DNA from: a virus
IMG/VR virus record: IMGVR_UViG_3300023223_000088
Coordinates: 1 to 21,573 of that record
DNA length: 21,573 nt
Strand: one strand, 5' to 3'
Below the pieces are notes generated by a model. That model did not search any database. It had not been told where the DNA came from and saw only the letters and a list, made by a program, of their open reading frames with translations. Positions 197 through 21,504 of this stretch are shown in pieces. Within the stretch, counting starts at the first letter, position 1. Every line of letters starts with the position of its first letter. Both the position numbers and the translations under genes were made by a program.

Positions 197-220
197 CCCT
201 ACAAAGTAGGGACACCTAAT
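197..220 (+). promoter_or_regulatory. Intergenic hairpin 1 with CTAATTCAA box
   Basis: The stem CCCTAC (197-202) and GTAGGG (206-211) encloses an AAA loop. The box CTAATTCAA follows at 216-224. The hairpin sits immediately after a stop codon and ahead of the next gene's leader. The same architecture recurs at 1142, 2209 and 4326. There is no T-run, so it does not look like an ordinary intrinsic terminator. Its role is unknown. Confidence 0.6.
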
Positions 221-266
221 TCAATCAATGGCAAGCCACAAAGGTTTGCTGGCACAATCAATCATC

Positions 267-449
267 ATGCACATCGAAGTAACAATCAAGGAAGTCTATG
301 GTAAAAAGCTCATCTATCCGCACTGTGATAGGGCAAAGGTTTTCACCACCATGTTAGGCACGAAAACGCTGACACTCCAACAGGTCAAGCATATCAATGC
401 GCTAGGCTTCGAGGTAAGGACTGTGAACACACAACCAGCAACAATATAA
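267..449 (+). CDS. Small hypothetical protein (60 aa)
   Basis: The protein starts MHIEVTIKEVYGKKLIYPHC and is rich in short beta-like segments; it resembles many small phage accessory proteins with no assigned role. An in-frame ATG lies upstream at 228 and would add 13 residues. I prefer 267 because it is preceded by ACAATCAATCATC, close to the A/C-rich leader found in front of other starts here, and because the 228 ATG comes only a few bases after the hairpin and CTAATTCAA box. No domain or motif is recognised. An AAAGGTTT octamer lies at 335. Confidence 0.6.
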   Translation: MHIEVTIKEVYGKKLIYPHCDRAKVFTTMLGTKTLTLQQVKHINALGFEVRTVNTQPATI

Positions 450-455
450 ATCACT

Positions 456-632
456 ATGAAAAGCATAGCATTATTCACCGCAATACTAACACTAGCCTTC
501 CTGCTTGGAGCAGTTCTGGCTGGCACGTTGTCATACTACACGTTCTACATCTATTCAGCGCCATTTTGGGTTGTTGTGATAGCCGTCTGGGCATTTCTCG
601 TCCCTTTCATCATAAAGACATGTAGCCGATAG
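456..632 (+). CDS. Small two-helix membrane protein (58 aa)
   Basis: The ORF encodes a very hydrophobic peptide. A first membrane segment spans about residues 3-24 and a second about 37-54, with a short Tyr-rich turn between them and a basic C-terminus ending KTCSR. Two hairpin-like helices with a charged tail fit a small phage membrane protein such as a holin-type or superinfection-exclusion factor, but nothing in the sequence selects one. The first helix could also be read as a signal peptide (AVLAG). The start is preceded by AACAATATAAATCA, a 14-base sequence repeated before the gene at 3244. Confidence 0.6.
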   Translation: MKSIALFTAILTLAFLLGAVLAGTLSYYTFYIYSAPFWVVVIAVWAFLVPFIIKTCSR

Positions 633-674
633 CTCGGCAATTCATCAACCATCAACCACAAACCTTATATTACT

Positions 675-1115
675 ATGAATAAATCAGATATAAAATCTAT
701 GCTCACTGGCGGCAAGTCGTCGTCGGTGGCAACTCAACCCGAACCACCACCAGAAATGCGAAAGAAGACACTCACAACCATCACAGCCATACTCGTAGCC
801 GCTATTGCAGCGGTAGACTGGCAAAACGTTGACACATTCAAGGTCAAAACACCACGAAAAAAGGGTGTTAAGGCTGGTGATCCACGCACTGTAATCACTG
901 GCATCCCAACGGATGCACTCAAAAAGATATGGCGCAAAAACAAGGTCGAACTCAAGCAAATTGGGTTCACTTTGTTCCCTGTTAGCCGGGAAAAAACTGG
1001 CGAAACCAAGACCGTGAAGGGCAGAACCTTCGAGATCGTCAAGAAACAATGGCAGGCACGATTGACTGTCAATGATAACAATAAAGCGCTTGCAACTGCG
1101 ATAGCAATTGGCTAA
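675..1115 (+). CDS. Hypothetical protein with N-terminal DIKxML motif
   Basis: A 146-residue basic protein of unknown function. Residues 5-17 (SDIKSMLTGGKSS) closely match residues 5-18 of the 517-aa protein at 4386 (LDIKGMLMAGLKTS). Both then run into low-complexity sequence, here PEPPPE. A hydrophobic stretch near residues 32-47 (TLTTITAILVAAIAAV) could be a membrane helix or a buried helix. The C-terminal half is Lys/Arg-rich and looks folded. The start follows CACAAACCTTATATTACT with no Shine-Dalgarno sequence. The shared N-terminus suggests a common partner or sorting signal within the phage; that is inference. Confidence 0.75.
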   Translation: MNKSDIKSMLTGGKSSSVATQPEPPPEMRKKTLTTITAILVAAIAAVDWQNVDTFKVKTPRKKGVKAGDPRTVITGIPTDALKKIWRKNKVELKQIGFTLFPVSREKTGETKTVKGRTFEIVKKQWQARLTVNDNNKALATAIAIG

Positions 1116-1141
1116 CACAAACCTTTGCACCAGCCCAAAAC

Positions 1142-1170
1142 CCCCTCGTAAGAGGGGAGGGCTAATGCAA
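1142..1170 (+). promoter_or_regulatory. Intergenic hairpin 2 with CTAATGCAA box
   Basis: CCCCTC (1142-1147) pairs with GAGGGG (1152-1157) around a GTAA loop. CTAATGCAA follows at 1162-1170, one base different from the box in copies 1, 3 and 4. It lies in the 104-base gap before the AAA+ ATPase gene. No T-run follows. Confidence 0.6.
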
Positions 1171-1186
1171 ATGGCAAACGCTTCAC

Positions 1187-1197
1187 AACTCACAATC
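1187..1197 (+). promoter_or_regulatory. Leader motif AACTCACAATC upstream of the ATPase gene
   Basis: This is one copy of a recurrent leader sequence, ACTCACAAYC, found shortly before many starts in the window (4366, 6885, 7143, 7910, 9005, 17388, 17432, 21515). Here it lies 22 bases before the ATG at 1220, and no purine-rich ribosome-binding site is visible. Confidence 0.5.
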
Positions 1198-1219
1198 TCA
1201 CACTAAACATCACATCACT

Positions 1220-2203
1220 ATGTCGGATAAAGAAAAACAATTCGCTGATCTACTCAAGGAGATGGTCGGCTTCAACAAGGAAACGATTACTGCGCTGGTC
1301 AAAGAGACGAGCGGTAATATGATAGGCGAGAGGGTCAACGAACTGGCTGAAGGATTATCCAATATCCTCACCAAATTTGAAGAGTCAATCGATACGCAAA
1401 TCAAGAAGGCTACCAAGCACCTGAAGGCAACGCACAAGGAAGTGCATCTCATCAAGGATGGCAAAACGCGTGTCGTCAAGGGGCACACTCATCCCATGTA
1501 TGAGAAAGCAATCAAGCTTTGTCGTCACCCTAAAATAAACCTTTTACTGGTGGGGCCAAGCGGATGCGGAAAAACTCACATGGCAATGATGATAGCGGAA
1601 GGGCTAGGGCTCAAGCACTACTGTCAGGGCTGCTGTGAAGACACAACCAAAGGCACGTTCGTTGGTATCAATCTGCCGAATGAATACATTCCAGGCACGG
1701 TGGAAAGAGTTATGAGGGACGGTGGCCTTTTGTTGATCGATGAATTCGATGCGCTCAATGCCAACGTTGCACTGATAATCAATGCTGCCCTATCTAATGG
1801 ATACATGGTCAATGCCAGAGGCGAGGTCGTCAAACAGCACGACGACTGTGTTATTATAGTGAGCGCCAATACGTTTGGCCGGGGTGCTGACCGCCTATTT
1901 TGTGGACGGAATCAGCTTGATGCTGCCACAATGGAGCGTGTCTATGCTCTGGACATGGATTATGATACGGACTTCGAGACCCAAATTGGCACGAAAGAAC
2001 TGTGCGATTTTGTCTGGGGCATTCGTGCCAAGGCAATCAAGAACCGTGTCCGCATATCAGTAGGCTCACGTTGGATTGAGAAGGGGCAAGCGGCAATGGA
2101 TTGCGGCGTTGCACTGAAGGAAGTCCAGAACGATTTGACATCCCATCTATCGATGGATGAGCGCAAACAAGTAGGGCTCACCCCTACGAAGTCAGCGGCA
2201 TAG
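1220..2203 (+). CDS. CobS/MoxR-like AAA+ ATPase
   Basis: A 327-residue single-module AAA+ ATPase. The N-terminal ~90 residues are helical and probably coiled. The ATPase core shows Walker A GPSGCGKT (112-119), Walker B GLLLIDEFDA with the acidic pair D174/E175, and a sensor-1 region IIVSANTF with N217; arginines at 221, 225 and 240 are finger candidates. The short core resembles the CobS/MoxR-type ATPases carried by many phages, which typically work as chaperone-like motors with a VWA-fold partner. The next gene fits that partner. The actual substrate is unknown; cobalt insertion is unlikely in a phage lacking other cobalamin genes. It starts after a leader with no Shine-Dalgarno sequence. 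Confidence 0.88.
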   Translation: MSDKEKQFADLLKEMVGFNKETITALVKETSGNMIGERVNELAEGLSNILTKFEESIDTQIKKATKHLKATHKEVHLIKDGKTRVVKGHTHPMYEKAIKLCRHPKINLLLVGPSGCGKTHMAMMIAEGLGLKHYCQGCCEDTTKGTFVGINLPNEYIPGTVERVMRDGGLLLIDEFDALNANVALIINAALSNGYMVNARGEVVKQHDDCVIIVSANTFGRGADRLFCGRNQLDAATMERVYALDMDYDTDFETQIGTKELCDFVWGIRAKAIKNRVRISVGSRWIEKGQAAMDCGVALKEVQNDLTSHLSMDERKQVGLTPTKSAA

Positions 2204-2208
2204 TGAAC

Positions 2209-2240
2209 CTCCCCCGAAAGGGGGAGTGTGCTAATTCAAT
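2209..2240 (+). promoter_or_regulatory. Intergenic hairpin 3 (GAAA tetraloop) with CTAATTCAA box
   Basis: The strongest copy of the element. CTCCCCC (2209-2215) and GGGGGAG (2220-2226) close a GNRA-type GAAA tetraloop. CTAATTCAA follows at 2231-2239. It separates the ATPase gene from its probable VWA-like partner. No T-run follows, so it would work as an RNA structure and not as a textbook intrinsic terminator. Confidence 0.65.
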
Positions 2241-2264
2241 CATCACAATCAACAATCACTTATC

Positions 2265-3215
2265 ATGTCATACACAAAAGCAAAAAATTCTGAGGTCGAT
2301 GAGACCAAGGGCAACACTCGTTACATACACTGGGAATCACTGCAAGGTATGGTCGAGTGCGCAAGGGCTGACCAATTCTGCGCAGCAAATCCTGAACACC
2401 ACATCAGCAACGAGTCCATGTTTAATGCATGGATCAATGAGGATGAAAGTCAATCGAAGCCTCAGTTTTATGTCGGGCCTCACTGGTATAAGCAAGGCAT
2501 CAGGTTCGCTGACATATTAAAGATGAACACTCACCCGAATCTCAATGAATACATGAACGAGATGCACAAGTTTGAAACGAAAAACCTTGAGGGATTTGTC
2601 GCCAAGAAAAAGCGGAGGCGTAAGCGTATCAGGGAGGAAGGTGAATCAGTCAGCATAGATCACTATGTTGACGACCCAAACCTTTGCATGACTGAAATAT
2701 ATACTGATCGTGTGGCCTCAAATATATGTGGGTTCATTGATCTTGTGTCCGAGGTCGGCGGCAATAGCAACATGTCTTCAGAGCAGCTAGAAAATTCAGG
2801 GCTTGCGGCATCGGCACTAGCTGACGCACTCGAAGACATTGGATACAGGGTGCGAATCATCATGGCTCACAAAGTAACCGAGCAAGATCCGAGAGCGGCA
2901 CACAATGTAAATATATATACCTGCATCATCAAGCACTACAATGAACCGCTTGATATGGGCAGGGTTGGCTTCACCATTGGAACTGGTGGGTTTTATCGGA
3001 CTGTTATGTTCAGCACCTATGCAAAATGCGCACTCGAAAGGGTGGCTCGTTCACTCGGCGCTGCTGTAGAGATAAAAGAAAGCGATCTTAAGAAGCTGCC
3101 AGTGGACATCAGCGAGAACAGTGTGATGCTGCCACGTATGAGAAGTCGGGAGGAAGCCGAACGATTCGTGAAGAAAACCATCGAAGAGAAACGCAAGGAA
3201 GCTGAAGCTGCCTAG
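2265..3215 (+). CDS. Probable VWA-fold partner of the AAA+ ATPase (DUF7192-like)
   Basis: A 316-residue protein. Residues 155-200 read CGFIDLVSEVGG, a short Ser/Asn-rich segment, then LENSGLAASALADALEDIGY followed by RVRIIM. This is the strand, loop, helix, strand pattern at the front of VWA domains. The canonical metal site DxSxS is absent: D159 is followed by L-V-S. From memory of the family this matches phage DUF7192-type proteins encoded beside CobS-like ATPases. A basic patch (KKKRRRKRIR, about residue 109-118) precedes the domain, and the C-terminus is a charged helix. Position directly after the ATPase supports a MoxR/VWA-style pair. The family label is recalled, not searched. Confidence 0.65.
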   Translation: MSYTKAKNSEVDETKGNTRYIHWESLQGMVECARADQFCAANPEHHISNESMFNAWINEDESQSKPQFYVGPHWYKQGIRFADILKMNTHPNLNEYMNEMHKFETKNLEGFVAKKKRRRKRIREEGESVSIDHYVDDPNLCMTEIYTDRVASNICGFIDLVSEVGGNSNMSSEQLENSGLAASALADALEDIGYRVRIIMAHKVTEQDPRAAHNVNIYTCIIKHYNEPLDMGRVGFTIGTGGFYRTVMFSTYAKCALERVARSLGAAVEIKESDLKKLPVDISENSVMLPRMRSREEAERFVKKTIEEKRKEAEAA

Positions 3216-3243
3216 CATATCACAACCATCAACAATATAAATC

Positions 3244-3735
3244 ATGTCCCAACAAAAAATAGTTACACTCGCATTGAGTTACGATCCGAGTAGCATGGGC
3301 CCGCAGTGTTTTAATTCAGTAGAATTATTCCGAGGCTCCGACATGCGTGACGCTGCTGAAAAGCTTATGACACACATGAAGGAACGACTGGGTGCGACTG
3401 CTTGCGCTGAACTAGCAGCCGAGATAAGCCATGCCTTCGATTCATTTCAGGTAGACCGCAAGATCAGGGGCGTGCAGTCATACACTCGCGACACTCCAAG
3501 CGACAGCGATTCCAACTGGAAACTGGACTACTACAACTACCCAGTGTTTGCATTTCAAATGCTGCTTAGTGAGAGGATAGCAGGCAAAGCAACAATCATA
3601 TCCGAGGATCATTCGAGCGCTGTCAAGAGGGCCGAAGGGATACTCAATACTGTAGGCATGGACGGATTCGTAGGCCACTACTTAAACGTTCGTGATCGTG
3701 GCATAGAAGTAATCGATAGCCGCCAAGTAGGATGA
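3244..3735 (+). CDS. Hypothetical protein (163 aa)
   Basis: A soluble, mixed alpha/beta protein with no recognised motif. The N-terminal part looks like strands followed by helices (residues 31-67), with a hydrophilic central loop containing DTPSDSDSNW. The start is preceded by AACAATATAAATC, an almost exact repeat of the leader of the 456 gene. The end overlaps the next gene by four bases (ATGA), implying translational coupling with the membrane protein at 3732. It belongs to the transcription group of the ATPase/VWA-like pair, but no functional link can be shown from the sequence. Confidence 0.75.
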   Translation: MSQQKIVTLALSYDPSSMGPQCFNSVELFRGSDMRDAAEKLMTHMKERLGATACAELAAEISHAFDSFQVDRKIRGVQSYTRDTPSDSDSNWKLDYYNYPVFAFQMLLSERIAGKATIISEDHSSAVKRAEGILNTVGMDGFVGHYLNVRDRGIEVIDSRQVG

Positions 3736-4034
3736 TAGCCGCCAGGGGATTCGACGAGGACGAAGACAAGATAGATGTCAAGGTCACTCTAGCAAGCAGG
3801 ACTGAGCGTATCAAATACAAGATACGCCAGTGTTACTATTGTATATGCAAATTATTCTTCGACATCTTTATCCTGCTGGCTGCGGTGCATTACATATTCA
3901 GCGGCATGATACTCGAAGCGATAGGCTGCTTCATACTCGTAGAGCTACGTGAATTCAAGCGTGACATGGAGAAGGCAGGCAAGCACACGAACATCAGAGT
4001 ATTTCAAGAACCATTCCAACCCAAAGGCAAATGA
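3732..4034 (+). CDS. Small membrane protein (100 aa)
   Basis: The first 30 residues are charged. They are followed by a Cys-rich stretch (CYYCICK, 34-40) and a hydrophobic region at about 41-70 that can form one long or two short membrane helices with a Gly-containing turn near 57-58. A basic cytoplasmic-type tail follows. Both ends use four-base ATGA overlaps, with the 3244 gene upstream and the 4031 gene downstream, so the three are probably translated as a coupled set. The function is unknown. Confidence 0.7.
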   Translation: MIAARGFDEDEDKIDVKVTLASRTERIKYKIRQCYYCICKLFFDIFILLAAVHYIFSGMILEAIGCFILVELREFKRDMEKAGKHTNIRVFQEPFQPKGK

Positions 4035-4324
4035 GCAACAACGACGACGACAAATATAAATATCACATCCAGTTTCTACTACTGAGGCTAGTGAACCACG
4101 CTATTGCGGTGACTGAAAAGAAACCGAAGGACATCATCGACAAGGCTAAAAGGTTTGTGATGCGTAGCATTGCAGTGGCACAGGTTCACCAGCTTGACAT
4201 CAAACAGTTGTGCGACGACACGTTCGTGCAGATACGTGACGAACGATTGAACGGTGACAGCGACGACGAGCTGTTGTCATTCATCTATCAACACATCAAC
4301 GAAATCACAGCCAACCATGCTTAA
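4031..4324 (+). CDS. Small helical hypothetical protein (97 aa)
   Basis: A predicted mostly helical soluble protein with acidic ends (SNNDDDKYK at the start; NGDSDDELLSF near the end). The middle (about 12-60) looks like an amphipathic helical bundle. No known family is recognised. It overlaps the previous gene by ATGA, and its stop codon is immediately followed by hairpin 4. An AAAGGTTT octamer lies inside the gene at 4149. Confidence 0.7.
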   Translation: MSNNDDDKYKYHIQFLLLRLVNHAIAVTEKKPKDIIDKAKRFVMRSIAVAQVHQLDIKQLCDDTFVQIRDERLNGDSDDELLSFIYQHINEITANHA

Positions 4325-4325
4325 C

Positions 4326-4350
4326 CCCCTGTAAGGGGAGGACTAATTCA
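4326..4350 (+). promoter_or_regulatory. Intergenic hairpin 4 with CTAATTCAA box
   Basis: CCCCT (4326-4330) pairs with AGGGG (4334-4338) around a GTA loop, and CTAATTCAA follows at 4343-4351. It begins two bases after the stop codon of the 4031 gene and precedes the leader of the 4386 gene, the same placement as copies 1-3. Confidence 0.6.
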
Positions 4351-4385
4351 AACAACACAATCATCAACTCACAACCACAAAAATT

Positions 4386-5939
4386 ATGACAGTAAAACTT
4401 GACATCAAAGGGATGCTAATGGCGGGGCTCAAGACGAGCGCACCGAAGGCAGCAGCGCCCGTAAAGGATGCGCCACATGTCGTAGTCAAAGAGGCTACCA
4501 TGAAGCCTCATAAAAAATACGATTACAAAGCGCCAACTGACGGCAAAGAAAGATCGATAAAGGAACTCATAGAAACTTTGCCCGAACCATACAGGTCACA
4601 GGCTATCGCTAATGCAACCTATGATCTCTCTAAGTTTAAGTATAGGAATGCACAGGAAGCAATAGGCGGGGCGTTCTCTTGGACTGAAAGCCCAGAGGGA
4701 TATTCATATTGGGCTGATGTGTCTAATTGGACGGTAGACAAAGCCGACTTGCCACCACCACCACCACCGAAGCCGGAGAAGAAGGTAGTAAAGAAGGTCG
4801 CGAAGAAAAAGTTTGCGAAGAAAAAATCTTCTGATCCACGTAGCCCCGACAACACACCAGTGCCAGAGCCAGTAGCAGCACCAGCACCGGAGCCTGAACC
4901 GAGTGGAGATGCACCCGAACCAGCACCGGAGCCAGTGCCAGAGAAAGCTGACGAGCCGGAGACACCACCCGAACCAGCGCCATCACCGCCACCGCCTCCA
5001 CCTAAGCCGTGTAAACCACCGACACCACCGGAGGAACCGAAGGCAGAGCCGAAGCCTCCACCACCAGAGTATGTAGGCACACACGAACTGGCTCAACGTG
5101 TTATGATCGTCAACGTTCACGTAAAACTTTGGGAAGGCAAGCGCACTGACAGTAGCGTAGGTAAGAAAATTATCCGTGAAGCAAATGCGAACGACGATGC
5201 AGGTAACTTCGTTAAAAACCTTATTAACCGGGACAAATACATCAAGCCCATCGAAAAGATACGAACACTAGCGAAGGCCACGCTGTATAAATACACAATG
5301 CCTTGGGGCTATGGCTCACGGGTCGTCACCGTCGATGCGTTCAAGAAACTGAGCGACGAGATACAATCCTTAATGACTCAGTTCGAGTATGCCGTAGGCA
5401 ACTTCATCGCACAAGATTATGACACTGCGAAGGAAGAAGCGGCCACCATACTCGGTGATCTATATAAGGAAGGCGACTACCCGGAGAAGTCAGCGCTCAA
5501 TGACAAGTTCGCTATGCACCTGGATGTCACCCCGTTCCCAACGGAGATCAAACTCAAACTGCCGGACGATGTGCTTGCTGACATCAAAAAGAATGTCGAA
5601 GATGGCATGTCTAACAAATGCATGGAGGCGTTGAACCTGCTAGTCAACAGGCTCGACAAAGCTTTGTCTGACTTCGCAGAGAAGGTGCGCAAAGACCCGA
5701 AGGAATGGCATGATTGCATCGTGCAAAACCTGAAGGACATGCTGGACATTGCACCATCACTTAACGTAACGAACGATGCTACACTTATGAAGGTGATCGA
5801 CACCGCAAAGACACGGCTTAAAGTTGTGCTTGCGATGGACACTAAGGAAGTGAGATCGCTCGTTGAAACCACACGAACAGACTTTGCTAAGAAAGCAGCG
5901 ACATCTGCGGAGGACATCCGCAAGCTGCTACTTGGTTGA
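4386..5939 (+). CDS. Large protein with DIKxML N-terminus and proline-rich linker
   Basis: A 517-residue protein in three parts. Residues 1-121 carry the DIKGML motif shared with the 675 gene and then a segment of the form LPEPYRSQAI...AIGGAFSWTESPEGYSYW; I recall similar segments in many phage hypothetical proteins, but have no name for them. Residues 123-229 are a Pro/Glu/Ala/Lys linker with polyproline runs and a basic block rich in KK, reminiscent of TonB-type spacers or histone-like tails. Residues 230-517 look folded and helical. The linker suggests bridging between two sites, or nucleic-acid contact through the basic block; both are inference. It is preceded by an AACTCACAACC leader (4366-4376). 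Confidence 0.8.
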   Translation: MTVKLDIKGMLMAGLKTSAPKAAAPVKDAPHVVVKEATMKPHKKYDYKAPTDGKERSIKELIETLPEPYRSQAIANATYDLSKFKYRNAQEAIGGAFSWTESPEGYSYWADVSNWTVDKADLPPPPPPKPEKKVVKKVAKKKFAKKKSSDPRSPDNTPVPEPVAAPAPEPEPSGDAPEPAPEPVPEKADEPETPPEPAPSPPPPPPKPCKPPTPPEEPKAEPKPPPPEYVGTHELAQRVMIVNVHVKLWEGKRTDSSVGKKIIREANANDDAGNFVKNLINRDKYIKPIEKIRTLAKATLYKYTMPWGYGSRVVTVDAFKKLSDEIQSLMTQFEYAVGNFIAQDYDTAKEEAATILGDLYKEGDYPEKSALNDKFAMHLDVTPFPTEIKLKLPDDVLADIKKNVEDGMSNKCMEALNLLVNRLDKALSDFAEKVRKDPKEWHDCIVQNLKDMLDIAPSLNVTNDATLMKVIDTAKTRLKVVLAMDTKEVRSLVETTRTDFAKKAATSAEDIRKLLLG

Positions 5940-5954
5940 GGTTGATTGATGATC

Positions 5955-5974
5955 GGGGGTGTGCAAACACCCCC
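5955..5974 (+). terminator. Strong hairpin after the 4386 gene, possible terminator
   Basis: GGGGGTGT (5955-5962) pairs perfectly with ACACCCCC (5967-5974) around a GCAA tetraloop. The G-rich arm comes first, opposite to hairpins 1-4, and no CTAATTCAA box follows. The sequence after the stem, AAAACCTTTTATT, has only a weak T-rich run. It could be an inefficient intrinsic terminator or an RNA-stabilising structure. Confidence 0.4.
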
Positions 5975-6886: not shown

Positions 6887-6898
6887 CTCACAATCATC

Positions 6899-7138: not shown

Positions 7139-7168
7139 TCACAACTCACAATCCACGAAAGAAAAACC

Positions 7169-7663
7169 ATGAAGAAAAAGAAAAAGGAAATCAAACTAAC
7201 CAAGACTGATACCATCGAGCTTATCGCTACGAAACTGCGTGAAGATTACCAGGCACGACAGAAAAAATATGACGCGTTCGAAAAACGTGCGGAGAATCTG
7301 ACGCAAGCGCTGGCTCAAAAGCACATCGCTCAAGGCATGAAGTCGGGATGCAAAATCGATCATGCCTACATAGATAGCGGCAACAAGCTTGAGATCACGG
7401 TGACAGTCAAGGATAAGAACGGCTTGAAGTATATACATCAGCTACACAAGGATGCTCAAAAGGTTTGGAACGGATGCACTCTGCCTGCCCACTTAGGTCG
7501 GCACGAAAGATTTCTCCAACGTGAAGCGCTGAAGAAGGCAAGGCAGATGGTTGCCGTTGGATGCAACGACATCAATAAAAAGCTGGAAAAAATCTACAAG
7601 TTGCCAGCGGTGCAGGCTGAATTGAAAAAGCTTTTGCCACGCACAGCATTGCTGAAGGTATAG
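7169..7663 (+). CDS. Basic hypothetical protein (164 aa)
   Basis: It starts MKKKKKEIKLTKTD and is strongly basic and mostly helical, with a small beta section near residues 66-88 (HAYIDSGNKLEITVTVKDKNG). The charge suggests nucleic-acid contact, but no motif confirms it. AACTCACAATC (7143-7153) precedes the start, with a purine-rich GAAAGAAAAA close to the ATG. The next gene starts one base after its stop. It carries an AAAGGTTT (7459) and an AAAGCTTT (7627) octamer. Confidence 0.75.
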   Translation: MKKKKKEIKLTKTDTIELIATKLREDYQARQKKYDAFEKRAENLTQALAQKHIAQGMKSGCKIDHAYIDSGNKLEITVTVKDKNGLKYIHQLHKDAQKVWNGCTLPAHLGRHERFLQREALKKARQMVAVGCNDINKKLEKIYKLPAVQAELKKLLPRTALLKV

Positions 7664-9002: not shown

Positions 9003-9013
9003 CCACTCACAAC

Positions 9014-10189
9014 ATGAAAACCATCGACGCATTCAACATCAGCCCACAAATCAGGGCGCGGCAATCGGATAGGGGTATCTGGTATCTCAGACACAGGGAT
9101 CTACACGGCAAGTCAATCGAATATTCAACAGGCGTGAAGGGCTCACGCACCGAGATCAAGCAGCATGTGAAGGCAGCAGGCGTGCATGATCTCGTCGCTG
9201 TCACTGCGGCTGGCTGTCTCAGCACCGAGACAATCCAACGTATCACAGGCAACACTAATATCAATCTGCTCGGCGTGATATGTGAGTGGGACGAACACAT
9301 GGGTCAGGCTGGCGAGGCAGACAGCACTCGCAGTGCTTTGTATAAGCGGATGATTCACTTGATTAAGCATAGCAATGGCGTGACTGCGACGAGTGGAGTA
9401 GGGGCAATCGAGATCAGTCACATCCACGCATGGGTCAACAACGAATTCTCTGGGCTGAAGCTTGCTACACGCAGGGCTCGGCTCACAACGATCAAGTCTT
9501 TCTTTAAGTTCTGCGTAGCAAAAGGTTATACGTTCACCAACCCTGCTGCACTGGTGAAAGTGAACATGAATATTATGACACACGCGCAGAAGGAAACGAA
9601 GAAGCAGGAGGCGATCACACTTGTAGAGCTGTATAAAATCATACGCTATGTCGATCAACTCATCGACAATCTCAAGGCAGCAAGGCTTTCTATCCCTTAT
9701 TCCGGCAAACAAAAATGGAGGCGAGAGGACAGCATCAGAGACAAAATCAAACGGCTTTCATTCTGGGGTGCGGCCTCAATACTATCATTCGAGACCGGAC
9801 TCAGGCTTGGTGATGTCGCTCAGTTGGAGCGCGATTCATTCAGCGCGGATGCTATCACGGTATGGACAGACAAGAGAGATCGACGCGTATCGATACCTAT
9901 GGATATGCTCGACATGGATCTGATACACAGGTGTGCCAGATACCTGCTGGACTACGGTCATTGCACCAGCTACATGTTCCCGATGCATAAGCTTCTTGTG
10001 ACCTCCGGCAAGTCAGATCACCTGTCGATGCAGTTCCGTAGGCTGGCTGACAAGGTGGGTATCAGCAAATCTTTTCACGGCTTCAGGCATTCTAGGATTG
10101 AAAGGTGGCATGATAAAGGTTTGTCTCTCGAAGCAATCGCAGAACTGGTAGCTCACAAATCCACCAAGACGACACTCGCATATCTATGA
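9014..10189 (+). CDS. Tyrosine recombinase / phage integrase
   Basis: A 391-residue tyrosine recombinase. The catalytic C-terminal domain has R264 (ETGLRLGD), K287 in the beta hairpin (VWTDKRDRR), H355 and R358 (HGFRHSR), H381 (ELVAHKS) and the nucleophile Y390 as the penultimate residue, so the active site looks complete. Residues about 75-180 form the SAM-like core-binding domain. The N-terminus (WYLRHRDLHGKSIEYSTGVK) resembles an arm-binding or AP2-like strand region. It breaks and rejoins DNA through a 3'-phosphotyrosine link. Its stop overlaps the terminase small-subunit start (ATGA), and no att-like repeat is seen beside it. It could serve integration, excision or multimer resolution. 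Confidence 0.92.
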   Translation: MKTIDAFNISPQIRARQSDRGIWYLRHRDLHGKSIEYSTGVKGSRTEIKQHVKAAGVHDLVAVTAAGCLSTETIQRITGNTNINLLGVICEWDEHMGQAGEADSTRSALYKRMIHLIKHSNGVTATSGVGAIEISHIHAWVNNEFSGLKLATRRARLTTIKSFFKFCVAKGYTFTNPAALVKVNMNIMTHAQKETKKQEAITLVELYKIIRYVDQLIDNLKAARLSIPYSGKQKWRREDSIRDKIKRLSFWGAASILSFETGLRLGDVAQLERDSFSADAITVWTDKRDRRVSIPMDMLDMDLIHRCARYLLDYGHCTSYMFPMHKLLVTSGKSDHLSMQFRRLADKVGISKSFHGFRHSRIERWHDKGLSLEAIAELVAHKSTKTTLAYL

Positions 10190-10914
10190 CCGAACCCGCC
10201 AACGTCCTTATTGTTGACCGTGAAACTGTCCACGAATGCTTGAAGAAAACAGATGGCAACCGTAAGGAAACGTTCAAGGTTCTCAAAAGCGCTGGCGTTA
10301 AGATCAATGATGTTAAGCAGCTCTCTAAATACATAGAAGAAGATGAAGTGCTGTCGCTGATATGGACGGACGACTTTACATTCGATGCCGACGACAAGGG
10401 TGTTGACCCGCTGGCGATACGCGTGCCATTGAGCGAGGAAGCACTCACAATCGCACGCATACAGCGTGAAGAAGACTACATTGCTGCGCGTGGCCTTGAG
10501 AAAACAGGGCTGGAAGCATCAGAGATCAAGGAAATCGTGGCGCTATCTCAGTTCTCTGGTAAAAGCTTTGCCTCCACAATGGATATGCTTCATGGGATAA
10601 TGACTATCCAGGCTTTCAGGCTGAAGGTTAGGGCCAAGTGGATTGAGGATGAAGTCCTTGATAGCGAGGAAGAAGTGGAACGTATGGTAGTGACAAGTGA
10701 TGGCGATGTCCTCAAATACAAAGGCCCGAAATACACGGAGGAGGAAAAGGTTGTATGGCTTCAGTGCTGGATAGATATTAATGACAAGCTCCGGCGCATC
10801 GCTGAGACTGGACACAACTCAGCAGGCGTAAGGGCTAAGGTCGAGCGCTTGGCGGGCGGTGGCGGTGGCAACAGCAGCGGTAATCGACTAAAGAAGCTAC
10901 CGGAGAATGGCTAA
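10186..10914 (+). CDS. Probable terminase small subunit
   Basis: A 242-residue protein directly upstream of, and overlapping by eight bases, the large terminase gene. Residues about 14-50 (VHECLKKTDGNRKETFKVLK, then KINDVKQLSKYI) look like a helix-turn-helix of the kind small terminases use to recognise the packaging start. The central part is helical and acidic, suited to oligomerisation, and the C-terminus is a Gly-rich tail (AGGGGGNSSGN) ending in basic residues. The assignment rests on position and general layout, as these proteins diverge strongly. Confidence 0.65.
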   Translation: MTEPANVLIVDRETVHECLKKTDGNRKETFKVLKSAGVKINDVKQLSKYIEEDEVLSLIWTDDFTFDADDKGVDPLAIRVPLSEEALTIARIQREEDYIAARGLEKTGLEASEIKEIVALSQFSGKSFASTMDMLHGIMTIQAFRLKVRAKWIEDEVLDSEEEVERMVVTSDGDVLKYKGPKYTEEEKVVWLQCWIDINDKLRRIAETGHNSAGVRAKVERLAGGGGGNSSGNRLKKLPENG

Positions 10915-12484
10915 GAAGCGGCGTGTCAAACCTTTATATGAAGGCTCAGATTTCTGGGAGCCTGAGCTTGGCGACACCCAACGCAAGATGTTCTGGGATG
11001 ATGCCCCCTACATACTGGCATACGGTGAACGTGTCAGCGGTAAGACGCGTGGCCTGCTGAACAAAGCAGTGAAGCACGCATGGCTATACGATGATGCGTT
11101 AGTAATGATTACTGCCTTCACCCGCACTGGCGCTACGGCTGGTGGTGCGTGGGAGGAACTGTTGAGTGAAGGCACGAACCATCTGGGCCAGCCGCACGGT
11201 GTCCTGAAACTGTGGGAAAAAGGCTTGGGATTGGTATGCAGCGGTGAGTATGGCGACGATGCGAAGAACAAGTGGATAGATATACGAACCAAGAACGGCA
11301 AGAAGTCCCGCATGATGCTGAGATCCATGCCAGTTGCGGCCCACATTACATCACGAGTGAAGGGAACAGCGCCGTCATTCTTTCTGTATGAAGAACTTAC
11401 AGAAACATCCCTCCTTGATGATAGTTATTTTTTCGACATGATAGGACAGTTAGGACGGCGCGGGACAGTGCCAGCTAAGGCGCAGCAGTGGTGTGCTTCA
11501 TGCAATCCATCTGAGTATGGCGAGCGGCACTGGGTATATAAAACCTTTTTCATAGACCCTTGGATCAAGGACGAGGAGACCGGGAAGAAGCACTGGGACA
11601 CGGATTACTCTGTGTATCATGTGCCAATAAATGAGAATCGGTGGATGGAGGACAAGGAAGGCTACCTCCGGCGCGTGAAACAGAAGTGTAAGAATGATCC
11701 AACCGCTTACGACAGGCTGATCCTCGGTAAATGGGTAGCTAAGATCACTGGCGCTGGCATCTTCGAGCATTTCTTCATCCCGAACATACATATAAAGGGC
11801 AAGAGGGGCAAGAGCGGGCTCGTTCCCAAGGTCGGAGACCCCATCATCATCGGGTATGACCCAGGCGATGTTAATAATAGCCGGACGTTCATGCAGAAAA
11901 ACGTGGCGGGCAAGAAGGAAATCTACCGGGTGTTCGACGAGAGTGTGTTCATCAAGAAGAAGAAATCCTTCCGGTCACTAGTGCTTGAGCTGTATGATAA
12001 GATGCACTGGTGGTGTGAGCGCATGGATTACATCTTTCCCTTCTATCACATCGGGGATAGGGCATGTCTCACAAACTGGAACCCTCAAGGCAGCTATGAC
12101 TTCCTGCAATTCGAGAAATACTCGAAGGAAATCATTCAGGAATTCGATAGGTTCAAAGACCTAGCCCCTATCAGAATGCTCTACCCGCTCAAAGGTTCTG
12201 GCTCGGTAGCCGATAGGGTGAAGGTGATGCAGGATAAGCTGGCATCCGAGCAGTTCATGGTCTCGGCTACCTGCAAGGCGCACGTTGATATGCTGATGAA
12301 TCTGAAGAAAGCGAAGAAGCACGGGGCCGAACAAGACTACGCTCCACTCAAGACTGTGAAGGGTGAGATCCATACATTCGACAGTTGCTCCTACCCGATA
12401 TTTTACTATGAGCAGAGAGCCCGACCAAGCCTGAGTGTGCCCGACAGTGAGAAAAAACTTGAAGTTGTTCGATTTGGTGGATAA
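10907..12484 (+). CDS. terL: Terminase large subunit (packaging ATPase/nuclease)
   Basis: A 525-residue packaging motor. The N-terminal ATPase has Walker A GERVSGKT (40-47), a Walker B-like segment FFLYEE (158-163) in which the usual Asp is Glu, and a coupling-type motif SCNP after QQWCA. The C-terminal nuclease has probable metal-binding acids at D318 (IIIGYDPGD), D384 (HIGDRA) and D492 (TFDSCSYP). It cuts concatemeric DNA and pumps it through the portal into procapsids. The gene starts inside the small-subunit gene. AAACCTTT octamers lie at 10928 and 11541. The exact packaging type (headful or cos) is not evident from the sequence. Confidence 0.92.
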   Translation: MAKKRRVKPLYEGSDFWEPELGDTQRKMFWDDAPYILAYGERVSGKTRGLLNKAVKHAWLYDDALVMITAFTRTGATAGGAWEELLSEGTNHLGQPHGVLKLWEKGLGLVCSGEYGDDAKNKWIDIRTKNGKKSRMMLRSMPVAAHITSRVKGTAPSFFLYEELTETSLLDDSYFFDMIGQLGRRGTVPAKAQQWCASCNPSEYGERHWVYKTFFIDPWIKDEETGKKHWDTDYSVYHVPINENRWMEDKEGYLRRVKQKCKNDPTAYDRLILGKWVAKITGAGIFEHFFIPNIHIKGKRGKSGLVPKVGDPIIIGYDPGDVNNSRTFMQKNVAGKKEIYRVFDESVFIKKKKSFRSLVLELYDKMHWWCERMDYIFPFYHIGDRACLTNWNPQGSYDFLQFEKYSKEIIQEFDRFKDLAPIRMLYPLKGSGSVADRVKVMQDKLASEQFMVSATCKAHVDMLMNLKKAKKHGAEQDYAPLKTVKGEIHTFDSCSYPIFYYEQRARPSLSVPDSEKKLEVVRFGG

Positions 12485-13834: not shown

Positions 13835-13841
13835 GCTCACA

Positions 13842-17343: not shown

Positions 17344-17353
17344 CTTTACTCAC

Positions 17354-17389
17354 ATGGCTAAGAAAAAACCAAAACCATACGGGAAGTAA
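17354..17389 (+). CDS. Possible 11-codon mini-gene MAKKKPKPYGK
   Basis: An ATG preceded by TTTACTCAC, part of the usual leader motif, opens an ORF of eleven codons ending TAA. The peptide is extremely basic (six Lys of eleven residues). Its stop codon lies in the first copy of a triple direct repeat. Short Lys-rich peptides occur in phages, but nothing here proves translation. It could also be an accidental reading of the leader region. Confidence 0.4.
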   Translation: MAKKKPKPYGK

Positions 17390-17440
17390 CTCACAAGATT
17401 ACTGACAAAGTAATTCACAAAACTAACAAGTAACTCACAA
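17384..17440 (+). repeat. Three direct repeats AAGTAAYTCACAA
   Basis: AAGTAACTCACAA occurs at 17384-17396 and 17428-17440, with AAGTAATTCACAA at 17408-17420, spaced 24 and 20 bases apart. Each copy contains a stop triplet TAA followed by the leader core CTCACAA, so it looks like a gene end plus leader copied three times. The last copy lies four bases before the ATG of the lipoprotein gene at 17445. Confidence 0.75.
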
Positions 17441-17444
17441 TAAA

Positions 17445-18707: not shown

Positions 18708-18952
18708 ATCCAAACGCAGAGGTAATCCGTGCGGAGTATATTCATATCAATAATACTTGGAACGGGGCACGGGCTCGTAGGCTTCTCAAGCTTGGGAAAA
18801 TATCAATCGATGAACTCGCAGCTTTAATCAACATGGACACTCACAAACTAAAAACGCAGATCGAAAACAATAAACTTTCCGGCGAAGTGAAGCTACACTT
18901 GCACAATTTAGAAACCTCTGTATTGAATAAGCGCCTACATCCGTCAGCATAA
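18704..18952 (+). CDS. Small HTH-like protein (82 aa, GTG start)
   Basis: It starts at GTG in a GTGA overlap with the previous gene and ends one base into the portal gene start. Residues about 20-60 (ARARRLLKLGKISIDELAAL, then DTHKLKTQIENNKLSGE) look like a helix-turn-helix of the sort seen in small terminase or regulatory proteins. Position directly before a portal gene is also compatible with a small-terminase-like or assembly role. The function is undecided. Confidence 0.65.
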   Translation: MNPNAEVIRAEYIHINNTWNGARARRLLKLGKISIDELAALINMDTHKLKTQIENNKLSGEVKLHLHNLETSVLNKRLHPSA

Positions 18953-21504
18953 TGGTAGACTACGACATACTAGACTCATACGGGACGAATCGGGATATGA
19001 TTCGTGCGGTCTTTACTGCCAAGTCTGACAAGATCACTCCGCACGCAGAGAAAATCCTGAACAAAAGGAAGGCAGCCCTGCTTGAAACGAAGGTCAAGCC
19101 GGACGATGCGCCGGATAACTGGGAGCCTAAGCTCACACCCAAGGAAATAAAAGCTTTGACATGGAAAACTGTCAACGGTTTGTGGAAAACACGGGAGGCA
19201 TGGCGCAAGAAAATCTGCACTCGCATTGAAGAGGGGTTGGTTCACAACGTCAGGCACTTCAGGTTTTATACAGCAGCCGACATGGCTATGGATTCCACAC
19301 CAATCCATGCTGAAGCCATACCTCTAAACCTTTATGCCCAGGGTAAGATAAACTTTGGCGACTGCGTTGATCGACTGAGTGATTGCTGCAAAGGTGATAA
19401 GCAAAAGCTGGAACAATTTCTGGTTAAAGATCCTAAAGATCCTCAGAAGGTTGTGGGCATCGACCTTCCAAGGCTCCACCATGTTATCGTCAACATCGTT
19501 CGGCCTCTGATTACACGTAGGCTGGCAGCGCAGGCTAACAAATTTAATAATCTGTGGCCGTATCTCAAGTATGACACTCGCGACAAGAAGCCAGTATCAA
19601 AGCTTCGTGGTGATGTGATGAGCCAGCGTGCCGAGGTCATGTCGGACAACTACGGATACCGCCATCTGTTCACACAGGCTATGCGCAAGTCATTGCTACA
19701 CGGGCACGCGCTCGCTTTCCCTGAATCAGCCTGGGATAAAGAGTTCGAGTTCCGTAAGAAGATGAAGGGTGGTGACGATGCCGGATGGGAAGCAGAAAAG
19801 GTTTTAGTCAAGGAAGGTATCAACTTTATACTGCCTCACCCGAACAGGAGATTTTATGATTTACAATACTCACCATCCACATTCAACACTGACAGCGGTT
19901 GCAGATACGCAGGCTTCTGGGATGTAGACAGGCTCCGCAACCTGTTAGGCAACAATATGTATTACAACACCAGTGAGGTCAGGGTGTCAGAAAGGTTCAT
20001 TAACCGCTTCGTCACGAACCAAGAGTTCAATAGCTGCAACTTCTCACGTAAAACAATTTCACTAAAGCCGCGCCACTTAATCCGGCATGACCAGAAGAAT
20101 GATCGCAGCACTACATACTGGATCGATGCAAAGAATTCAGGTGACACTGAGGTAGTCGTCACTACCTACTACGAGAAGATTATACCGAAGGATGAAGGGC
20201 TCGGTGACTATCCTTTCCCTGTGTGGATCAGACTGCTCGTAGTTGACGACGACACTGTTATCTTTGGAGAGATCATGCCATCACGCCCATGCCTGTATCT
20301 CGGATACAATGAGGACGACTCACGCGTGATCGCTCAATCAATGGCGCATGAGATCATCCCTTACCAAGATCACATGACAAACCTTTTCAGTCAGATGCTA
20401 TACCTGATGAAGCTGCAAAGCTTTTTATTACTGATGGTCGATGTAGATATGCTGTCGGAAACACATCGAGAGCAGTTCAAGGAACTTGTGAAAGGCAACC
20501 AGTATTTTGCGAAGCCGTTGCTAGTGGAACATTCGTCTACTGACTTCCGTGAAACCTTTGGAAAGAATCCCGACAACCCGGTTAAGTTTGTCATTCCGCA
20601 AATACAAGCGCAGATAAACGAGTTGCTTCGTGGCGTGTCTGAGATTCTAGCAATGGCTGAACGTAACCAGATCATGTCACCGCAGGAGCTCGGTCAGTTC
20701 AATCAACGCGAGACAAGTGCCACTGAAGTTGCATCTGTCGAAAGCACTACCAACGCTGTGTTCAGCTTTATCTCTGAAGGGGCTGATGATTTCCGCGCTG
20801 CATTGAAACAAATGATTTATGAGTCCACTGTCGCTAAGGGCAGCAAGACAATCAAAGTCCCTGTCATTAACACCTACGATGAAAAGGTTGTGCAGGCCGC
20901 TGGCTTTGAGATCGATAGGACTGATGAAGTTGACCTCAATGCAGATGCACAAGGCGACGATGGTGCGCCACCAACTGAAGTTCTAAAGAGCGAGACAGGT
21001 GCAGCTAATAAGCAGGCACTACAACGTCCTAACACCCAGACTATCATTGGCACGCGTGAGTCGTTAGTCCACAACTACACGTTTACATCACGCGATGGTG
21101 GCGAGCGCAGCATCAACGTGCAGGCTGCAAAATCTCTGGTCTCTCTCATGCAAGTCATTGGAAAGAATCCTGTGCTTATCGAGCGCATGGGTAACGACCA
21201 GCTATTCAAGATGGTGCAGGAAATCTTCAGGCTGTCCGGCTCTAGCTTTATACTGGAACTGCCAGACCAAGATGGTCAACAGCAGCAACCCGGTGAACTC
21301 ACTCAGGAGCAATTGACTCAGGTAATCCAGGGTATTGCACAGCAGGTTCAATTGAACTCAACAGAGATTCAGGATTTAGCCGGGGCCACTCGACAAATAC
21401 TTGAAGCTCTCGGCATCACAGTCCCGCCAGAGCAACCGCCAGCCGCACCAGTAAATCAAGTGCAGCAAGTGGCTAGACCACCAGGGCCAGGGCCAGTAGC
21501 ATAA
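18952..21504 (+). CDS. Portal protein (probable)
   Basis: An 850-residue protein with portal-like character. It has an N-terminal helical stem (about 1-90), and a central region LHHVIVNIVRPLITRRLAAQ...WPYLKYDT with MRKSLLHGHALAFPESAWDK resembles the clip/wing entry of portals. A helical crown region contains NELLRGVSEILAMAERNQ and the RETSATEV segment before FISEGADDF, a pattern I associate with large portals. The C-terminus (about 765-850) is Gln/Pro-rich and probably disordered. Portals form the dodecameric DNA gate at one capsid vertex and dock the terminase. Identity is by pattern recall; 850 residues is long for the family. It overlaps the previous stop by one base. Confidence 0.75.
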   Translation: MVDYDILDSYGTNRDMIRAVFTAKSDKITPHAEKILNKRKAALLETKVKPDDAPDNWEPKLTPKEIKALTWKTVNGLWKTREAWRKKICTRIEEGLVHNVRHFRFYTAADMAMDSTPIHAEAIPLNLYAQGKINFGDCVDRLSDCCKGDKQKLEQFLVKDPKDPQKVVGIDLPRLHHVIVNIVRPLITRRLAAQANKFNNLWPYLKYDTRDKKPVSKLRGDVMSQRAEVMSDNYGYRHLFTQAMRKSLLHGHALAFPESAWDKEFEFRKKMKGGDDAGWEAEKVLVKEGINFILPHPNRRFYDLQYSPSTFNTDSGCRYAGFWDVDRLRNLLGNNMYYNTSEVRVSERFINRFVTNQEFNSCNFSRKTISLKPRHLIRHDQKNDRSTTYWIDAKNSGDTEVVVTTYYEKIIPKDEGLGDYPFPVWIRLLVVDDDTVIFGEIMPSRPCLYLGYNEDDSRVIAQSMAHEIIPYQDHMTNLFSQMLYLMKLQSFLLLMVDVDMLSETHREQFKELVKGNQYFAKPLLVEHSSTDFRETFGKNPDNPVKFVIPQIQAQINELLRGVSEILAMAERNQIMSPQELGQFNQRETSATEVASVESTTNAVFSFISEGADDFRAALKQMIYESTVAKGSKTIKVPVINTYDEKVVQAAGFEIDRTDEVDLNADAQGDDGAPPTEVLKSETGAANKQALQRPNTQTIIGTRESLVHNYTFTSRDGGERSINVQAAKSLVSLMQVIGKNPVLIERMGNDQLFKMVQEIFRLSGSSFILELPDQDGQQQQPGELTQEQLTQVIQGIAQQVQLNSTEIQDLAGATRQILEALGITVPPEQPPAAPVNQVQQVARPPGPGPVA

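Follow-up and report, generated by a model that had tools for sequence, protein, structure and literature searches.

Introduction

In the early region of phage T7, cuts by RNase III at hairpins yield gene-sized pieces of the message. In rRNA operon leaders, boxB precedes boxA, and the boxB of phage lambda folds into a GNRA-like loop; GNRA loops occur in terminators as well as in boxB. The cis elements of rRNA antitermination are given as boxB, boxA, and boxC in PMC10250234. In an Escherichia coli reporter of selective RNA processing and stabilization (SRPS), the order is stem-loop, cleavage site, and next gene (excerpt of PMC10667835). In this study, we analysed IMG/VR record IMGVR_UViG_3300023223_000088 over its whole 21,573 bases (hereafter, the window), which is most likely a virus genome fragment. 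It carries four copies (H1 to H4) of an element composed of a hairpin, a 4-nt linker, and the nonamer tag CTAAT(T/G)CAA, situated within one phage operon. The element is real, significant, and strand-specific; it is of an ordinary kind, with an unusual linker and nonamer. Tentatively, and with somewhat less than even confidence, we regard it as an intercistronic RNA signal by which a phage message, polycistronic and probably early, is divided.

As in SRPS sites, a stem-loop lies past one cistron, and a possible cleavage site in single-stranded RNA separates it from the next. The element differs in having a conserved nonamer at a fixed 4 nt in four copies, a tag that ordinary SRPS sites would be expected to lack. 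As with the T7 early RNase III sites, several intercistronic hairpins lie in an early region, but three of the four hairpins here (5-7 bp) are too short for the typical RNase III duplex of about one to two helical turns; H1, H3, and H4 do not reach this length, and H2 alone is extended. The T7 sites are not known to carry such a nonamer. Lambda nut and the rRNA boxB-boxA pair likewise combine a GNRA-type hairpin with a linear box at a fixed spacing, whereas the box described here does not match boxA and is repeated four times within one operon.

Sequence and geometry of the element

Read 5' to 3', each copy starts with AAC. A C-rich arm and its G-rich complement follow, separated by a loop of 3-4 nt, and after a further 4 nt the copy closes with CTAAT(T/G)CAA. 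The stems of all four hairpins are perfect helices of 5-7 bp. The features are as follows.

197-211, + strand: H1 stem-loop, 6 bp CCCTAC/GTAGGG, loop AAA, 2 nt past the stop of ORF 3-194
216-224, + strand: H1 nonamer CTAATTCAA, 4 nt past the stem
1142-1157, + strand: H2 stem-loop, 6 bp CCCCTC/GAGGGG, GNRA loop GTAA
1162-1170, + strand: H2 nonamer CTAATGCAA, 4 nt past the stem
1122-1174, + strand: H2 extended structure, outer helices (CC)TTTGCA/TGCAAA(GG) and AGCCC/GGGCT, which enclose the hairpin and pair most of the nonamer
2209-2226, + strand: H3 stem-loop, 7 bp CTCCCCC/GGGGGAG, GNRA loop GAAA
2231-2239, + strand: H3 nonamer CTAATTCAA, 4 nt past the stem
4326-4338, + strand: H4 stem-loop, 5 bp CCCCT/AGGGG, loop GTA
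4343-4351, + strand: H4 nonamer CTAATTCAA, 4 nt past the stem

The hairpins were located at the positions given by the original prediction, which was made by reading the sequence (197, 1142, 2209, and 4326). The spacer, described there as 4-7 bases, is in fact 4 nt in all four copies (ACAC in H1, AGGG in H2, TGTG in H3, and AGGA in H4), and the geometry is thus tighter than had been stated. The outer helices are present in H2 only. For H4, the minimum free energy (MFE) RNA fold offers an alternative register at 4325-4341, in which a GTAA (GNRA) loop is closed by a T-G pair and an A is bulged.

Occurrence relative to chance

The pattern CTAATKCAA was counted five times on the + strand and not once on the - strand, against 0.41 expected; none of 100 shuffles reached five. 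The fifth + strand copy, at 4609, lies inside the ORF at 4386-5939 and has no hairpin. For the second calculation, hairpins were defined as GC-rich, with a stem of at least 5 bp and a loop of 3-5. For 0.065% of the window positions, such a hairpin ends exactly 4 nt upstream. Four hairpins share a 5-mer at a fixed offset, compared with a maximum of two in 300 dinucleotide shuffles. An artefact of chance or composition could draw on the small number of copies (n=4), all from one record. Since none of the 300 dinucleotide shuffles matched the observed fixed-offset count, and the nonamer excess, the fixed geometry, and the intergenic GNRA enrichment described below also count against it, we consider its probability negligible.

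Pairing and RNA folding

Across the four copies, the second pair from the stem foot is C-G or T-A, the fourth is T-A or C-G, and the fifth is A-T, T-A, C-G, and T-A in turn. Both sides change at these pairs, and there is no mismatch among 24 pair cells, as expected from the earlier claim that the stem letters vary with pairing intact. By RNA folding, stem probability was 0.95-1.0 for H1, H2, and H3, and the tag was largely unpaired in H1, H3, and H4. The extended H2 structure had a folding energy of -28.4 kcal/mol (z -4.19), which none of 200 shuffles equalled.

The loops distinguish the two strands. Tetraloop hairpins were surveyed that had four or more pairs, of which three or more were G-C. 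On the + strand 53 were found, seven with a GNRA loop, and these fell on all four of the intergenic hairpins (H2, H3, H4, and a further hairpin at 5955-5974) compared with 3/49 in coding sequence (Fisher p 1.2e-4). GNRA was found in 0/59 tetraloops of the - strand. For the intergenic comparison, H4 was assigned the GTAA register of the RNA MFE fold; the H4 loop is GTA in the strict Watson-Crick register, and the DNA fold likewise gives a 3-nt loop. Sense RNA thus has a GNRA loop in three of the four elements (H2, H3, and H4 in the MFE register), and H1 has the triloop AAA. Because the GNRA bias is confined to the sense strand, sense RNA, and not the DNA duplex, is likely to be the selected molecule, and the observation points to the sense transcript. 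The proposal of a selected RNA structure is therefore supported, both by the pairing kept through letter changes and by the sense-only GNRA loops.

The GNRA asymmetry alone does not identify which RNA process is served. It would suit a nut-like antitermination site, or another regulatory site, which a phage protein would load onto the transcribing polymerase, and such a site would also have a hairpin and a linear box at a fixed distance. The order of hairpin then box is that of rRNA operon leaders and not that of lambda nut. Against this explanation, four copies are spread along one operon, where a single promoter-proximal copy would be expected, only 5/9 positions of CTAATTCAA match the boxA core by eye, and an N-like protein was not identified in the window. 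We rate this second-nearest rival as distinctly unlikely.

A DNA operator bound by a dimer on the duplex was also considered and dropped; such binding is unlikely because the half-site distances and loop lengths vary. The Rfam search gave four covariance-model matches in the window at E<=5, none overlapping the elements.

Placement between translation units

The four hairpins begin 2 (H1), 26 (H2), 5 (H3), and 1 nt (H4) downstream of the upstream stop codon, and the expectation that they would lie near stop codons was borne out by this range of 1-26 nt. From the end of the element to the start of the next unit there are 25-49 nt, if ATG 267 is used as the start past H1; downstream of H1, ATG 267 is 42 nt and ATG 228 is 3 nt away. 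The four element-bearing gaps exceed most other gaps of the fragment in length. The units set apart by the elements are [267-449, 459-632, 675-1115], [CobS], [DUF7192, 3244, 3732, 4031], and [DUF3150], with the following named features.

1220-2203, + strand: gene of a CobS/AAA_5-type ATPase, flanked by H2 and H3
2265-3215, + strand: DUF7192 gene, first gene past H3
4386-5939, + strand: DUF3150-containing gene, first gene past H4
5955-5974, + strand: fifth intergenic hairpin, 8 bp, G-first, GNRA loop GCAA, without the nonamer, past the DUF3150 gene

The positions agree with the suggestion that the elements may mark a single expression class around the ATPase operon. The statement that no copy lies later holds for the complete element; it does not hold for the intergenic GNRA hairpin as such, which recurs untagged at 5955-5974. 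That hairpin is followed by AAAACCTTTTATT / AAAACCTTTT, with the over-represented 8-mer AAACCTTT directly past the stem, and is possibly a terminator that closes the region.

The nearest rival explanation concerns termination. The element could be a U-less terminator, an attenuator, or a hairpin-stabilised pause, giving partial termination between units; the hairpin would form behind RNA polymerase, with the linker and the first tag bases in the RNA-DNA hybrid. GC-rich GNRA hairpins directly past stops, with the following conserved bases at constant spacing, would suit this, and so would the similar hairpin that closes the region. However, inspection of the 3' flanks found no T-run, which an intrinsic (Rho-independent) terminator requires, at any of the four sites, as had been noted originally, and the terminator scan flagged none of them. 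An identical 9-nt tag is unexpected for intrinsic terminators. Moreover, efficient termination would demand a promoter for each unit, and the sigma-70 scan gave 27 sites against 29.0 in shuffles. We therefore rate termination or pausing as unlikely, though it deserves more weight than the other rivals.

The gene leaders are A/C-rich, and ACTCACAA recurs 12 times on the + strand and 0 times on the - strand. The likeness between the tag and this leader motif is only loose. ACTCACAA was seen upstream of ATGs in place of a Shine-Dalgarno sequence, for example at 6887-6898, 7139-7168, 9003-9013, 13835-13841, and 17344-17444, the last with three tandem variants. At 625-638, a hairpin (GCCGA-TAGC-TCGGC) shares bases with the stop codon of ORF 459-632; directly after this hairpin comes AATTCATC, which loosely echoes the tag.

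Proposed mechanism

As an intercistronic processing signal, the element would be bipartite: a GC-rich stem-loop, usually GNRA-capped, right past the stop, then the 4-nt linker and the single-stranded tag CUAAU(U/G)CAA, after which the next translation unit would begin with its A/C-rich leader. A factor, either a phage protein or a host nuclease, would read the hairpin and the tag in the message, and would cut the message or set its ends at the element. The hairpin would stay on the upstream piece as its protected 3' end, while a separate 5' end would arise for the downstream gene; the operon would thereby be divided into segments, each with its own stability and translation. The sequence, the fixed geometry, the pairing through letter changes, the sense-strand GNRA loops, and the positions at unit boundaries on which this scheme is built are direct observations, and from them we infer the cleavage, the recognising factor, and the timing. 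The T/G position of the tag cannot, as both T and G, form standard pairs with one fixed base, which would favour a protein over an antisense RNA as the reader of the tag.

Several results weigh against this interpretation. Plain RNase E processing needs no conserved nonamer, and no nuclease or RNA-binding protein was identified among the window proteins. The H4 stem had a probability of about 0.5 in the listed register, with the competing register described above. In its 66-nt context H1 folded no better than shuffles (z -0.57), and H4 gave z -0.15 in a 66-nt and z -0.53 in a 41-nt context. The H2 tag is almost fully paired with upstream sequence (unpaired probability of about 0 at 7/9 positions); hence, a reader that needs a single-stranded tag would be blocked at H2, unless H2 is a regulated copy. 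Finally, the searches described below found no relative with the element and hence no independent covariation.

A more specific form of the proposal is that the hairpin, the 4-nt ruler, and the nonamer constitute an undescribed phage signal with a phage-encoded reader, by which the units of an early operon are processed or antiterminated separately, a kind of phage RNA punctuation code. This is possible, and we consider it rather doubtful. In the open-licence PMC literature, no description of this kind of element was found among the papers listed, and none of those listed for the literal nonamer was related by title. If the processing interpretation is true, the element would offer a portable and compact means, at the RNA level, of setting the ratios between genes of a phage operon, and its recognising factor could be discovered and put to use. 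The scope at present is a single fragment of a single uncultured phage. A structured element in four copies was detectable by sequence reading alone in a phage without known relatives.

N4-type promoters as an alternative

The hairpins may also be compared with the promoters of phage N4, in which case an injected virion RNA polymerase would recognise DNA: the hairpin would extrude, and transcription would start at the tag past the linker. The N4 hairpin has a stem of 5-7 bp and a small loop, with its foot at -5 and 4 nt to +1 (excerpts of PMC4496689 and PMC3715699). All four elements have the same 4-nt distance from the foot to the region of the putative start, and they recur within the left, early portion of the genome, oriented as the genes. 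The window portal offers a further link. It matches PHROG 6547, a family with a strong match to the phi14:2 portal, from a crAss-like phage, and with none in N4, and crAss-like phages encode virion RNA polymerases (excerpt of PMC10136315). This link is weak, as a profile built from four related portals scored only 2.2 bits against the window portal; crAss-like kinship of the phage may be taken as a lead from this single weak match. In addition, the N4 promoter requires a 3-nt loop and G at -10/-11 of the template strand (excerpt of PMC4496689), whereas the template loops here are TTT, TTAC, TTTC, and TAC, which vary in size and are without the required G's. The fixed distance is measured from the stem foot here and from the loop in N4, and the sense-strand location of the GNRA loops speaks for RNA. 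No such array was found in N4 (first 20 kb) or phi14:2, and there is no virion RNA polymerase gene in the 21.6-kb fragment, which is most likely only part of the genome. We consider an N4-type promoter improbable.

Search for relatives and further copies

In protein scans of IMG/VR, pattern stretches were obtained for CobS (4), TerL (3), and the portal (1), with none confirmed; for DUF3150, one of seven stretches was confirmed, at 25% identity. TerL gave 21 stretches and no confirmed match in genome_contigs (84,980 genomes). At 1e-10, TerL had no match in 296 genomes of the phylum of a Bacteroidetes metagenome-assembled genome (MAG; locus L116) or in 199 genomes of the phylum of a Planctomycetota MAG (locus L125), in both cases without a positive control. 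A CobS alignment of six sequences recovered 239 relatives, of which 80 were kept for examination. The 80 are distant (best segment identity about 42%), and the array is absent from all 80 loci; among the other window genes, only weak DUF7192 matches or one 34% match were found there. No close relative of the phage, which is unclassified, was found in these comparisons.

DNA-pattern scans of IMG/VR returned 15, 35, and 24 stretches, and the scan of the 84,980 genomes returned 24, each with a single match. On inspection, the matches were coding sequence, canonical terminators, or repeats resembling repetitive extragenic palindromes (REPs). A descriptor combining the hairpin, the 4-nt spacing, and the nonamer gave 16 exact matches in 4.44 million strand-bases, 4 of them in the window; the other 12 were single-copy and lay in loci fetched by the pattern scans. 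With two mismatches allowed, there were 17 matches versus 16 for the reversed nonamer. More than one copy per record was found in the window only. A covariance model built from a MAFFT alignment was discarded, as the alignment columns lose the helix register. Within the sequence searched, the element would appear private to this record, which carries small biological weight because none of that sequence comes from a true relative.

Mobile REP-like palindromes, copied by a Y1 transposase of the IS200/IS605 type on single-stranded DNA, might account for short hairpins that are C-rich and flanked by a fixed tag with TCAA/GCAA at its end, and look-alike repeats in Bacteroidota (loci L114, L116, and L120) lend some appeal to the idea. 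However, PF01797, the Y1 transposase, was not found in the record. The stems vary between copies, contrary to young REPs, and the near-identical palindromes of a REP and transposase pair are thus missing as well. In the Bacteroidota loci, the sequence flanking the repeat varies from repeat to repeat, and 4/4 copies of the element are at gene ends of one operon. Mobile palindromes are accordingly a very improbable source. An IS608-like end was dropped for want of a transposase.

Across L116, L114, and L120, the look-alike repeats comprise REP-like CCTCCCC-AAA-GGGGAGG sequences in a Bacteroidota MAG and similar palindromes in two Muricauda-type genomes, where the latter are apparently inserted within coding context.

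Gene content of the window

All likely genes run in the + direction, according to the list of ORFs. Apart from the genes named above, the following were assigned.

9014-10189: tyrosine integrase
10907-12484: TerL (terminase)
18952-21504: portal, probable

Other repeats

Three 8-mers are strongly over-represented across the window: AAAGCTTT at 10 places, AAAGGTTT at 8, and AAACCTTT at 10, with about one expected for each (both strands). They occur in all codon frames and in intergenic sequence, for example at 240, 1119, 5658, 5976, 10115, and 20552. AAAGSTTT occurs 18 times, compared with once for the reversed pattern. These 8-mers may be a DNA-level signal, perhaps a binding, modification, or packaging site.

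Further repeats were seen in loci fetched for comparison. Two copies of GGTCGAAAC...CTGATGAGACC, near 2592 and 2904 of L057, resemble hammerhead ribozymes. In L073, a phage with a CobS relative, three near-identical hairpin repeats at 7527, 7903, and 8250 consist of CCCGAAGCCCGAAAGACGGGCTTCGG followed by ATACCGTTACTGTCAC. Six promoter-like sites in L072 (11665, 12655, 14128, 14938, 15618, and 18877) have a -35-like TTGCAA or close; the palindrome GCACCGnnnnCGGTGC, or one close to it, fills the spacer ahead of TATACTTGGG, giving the look of an operator within a promoter.

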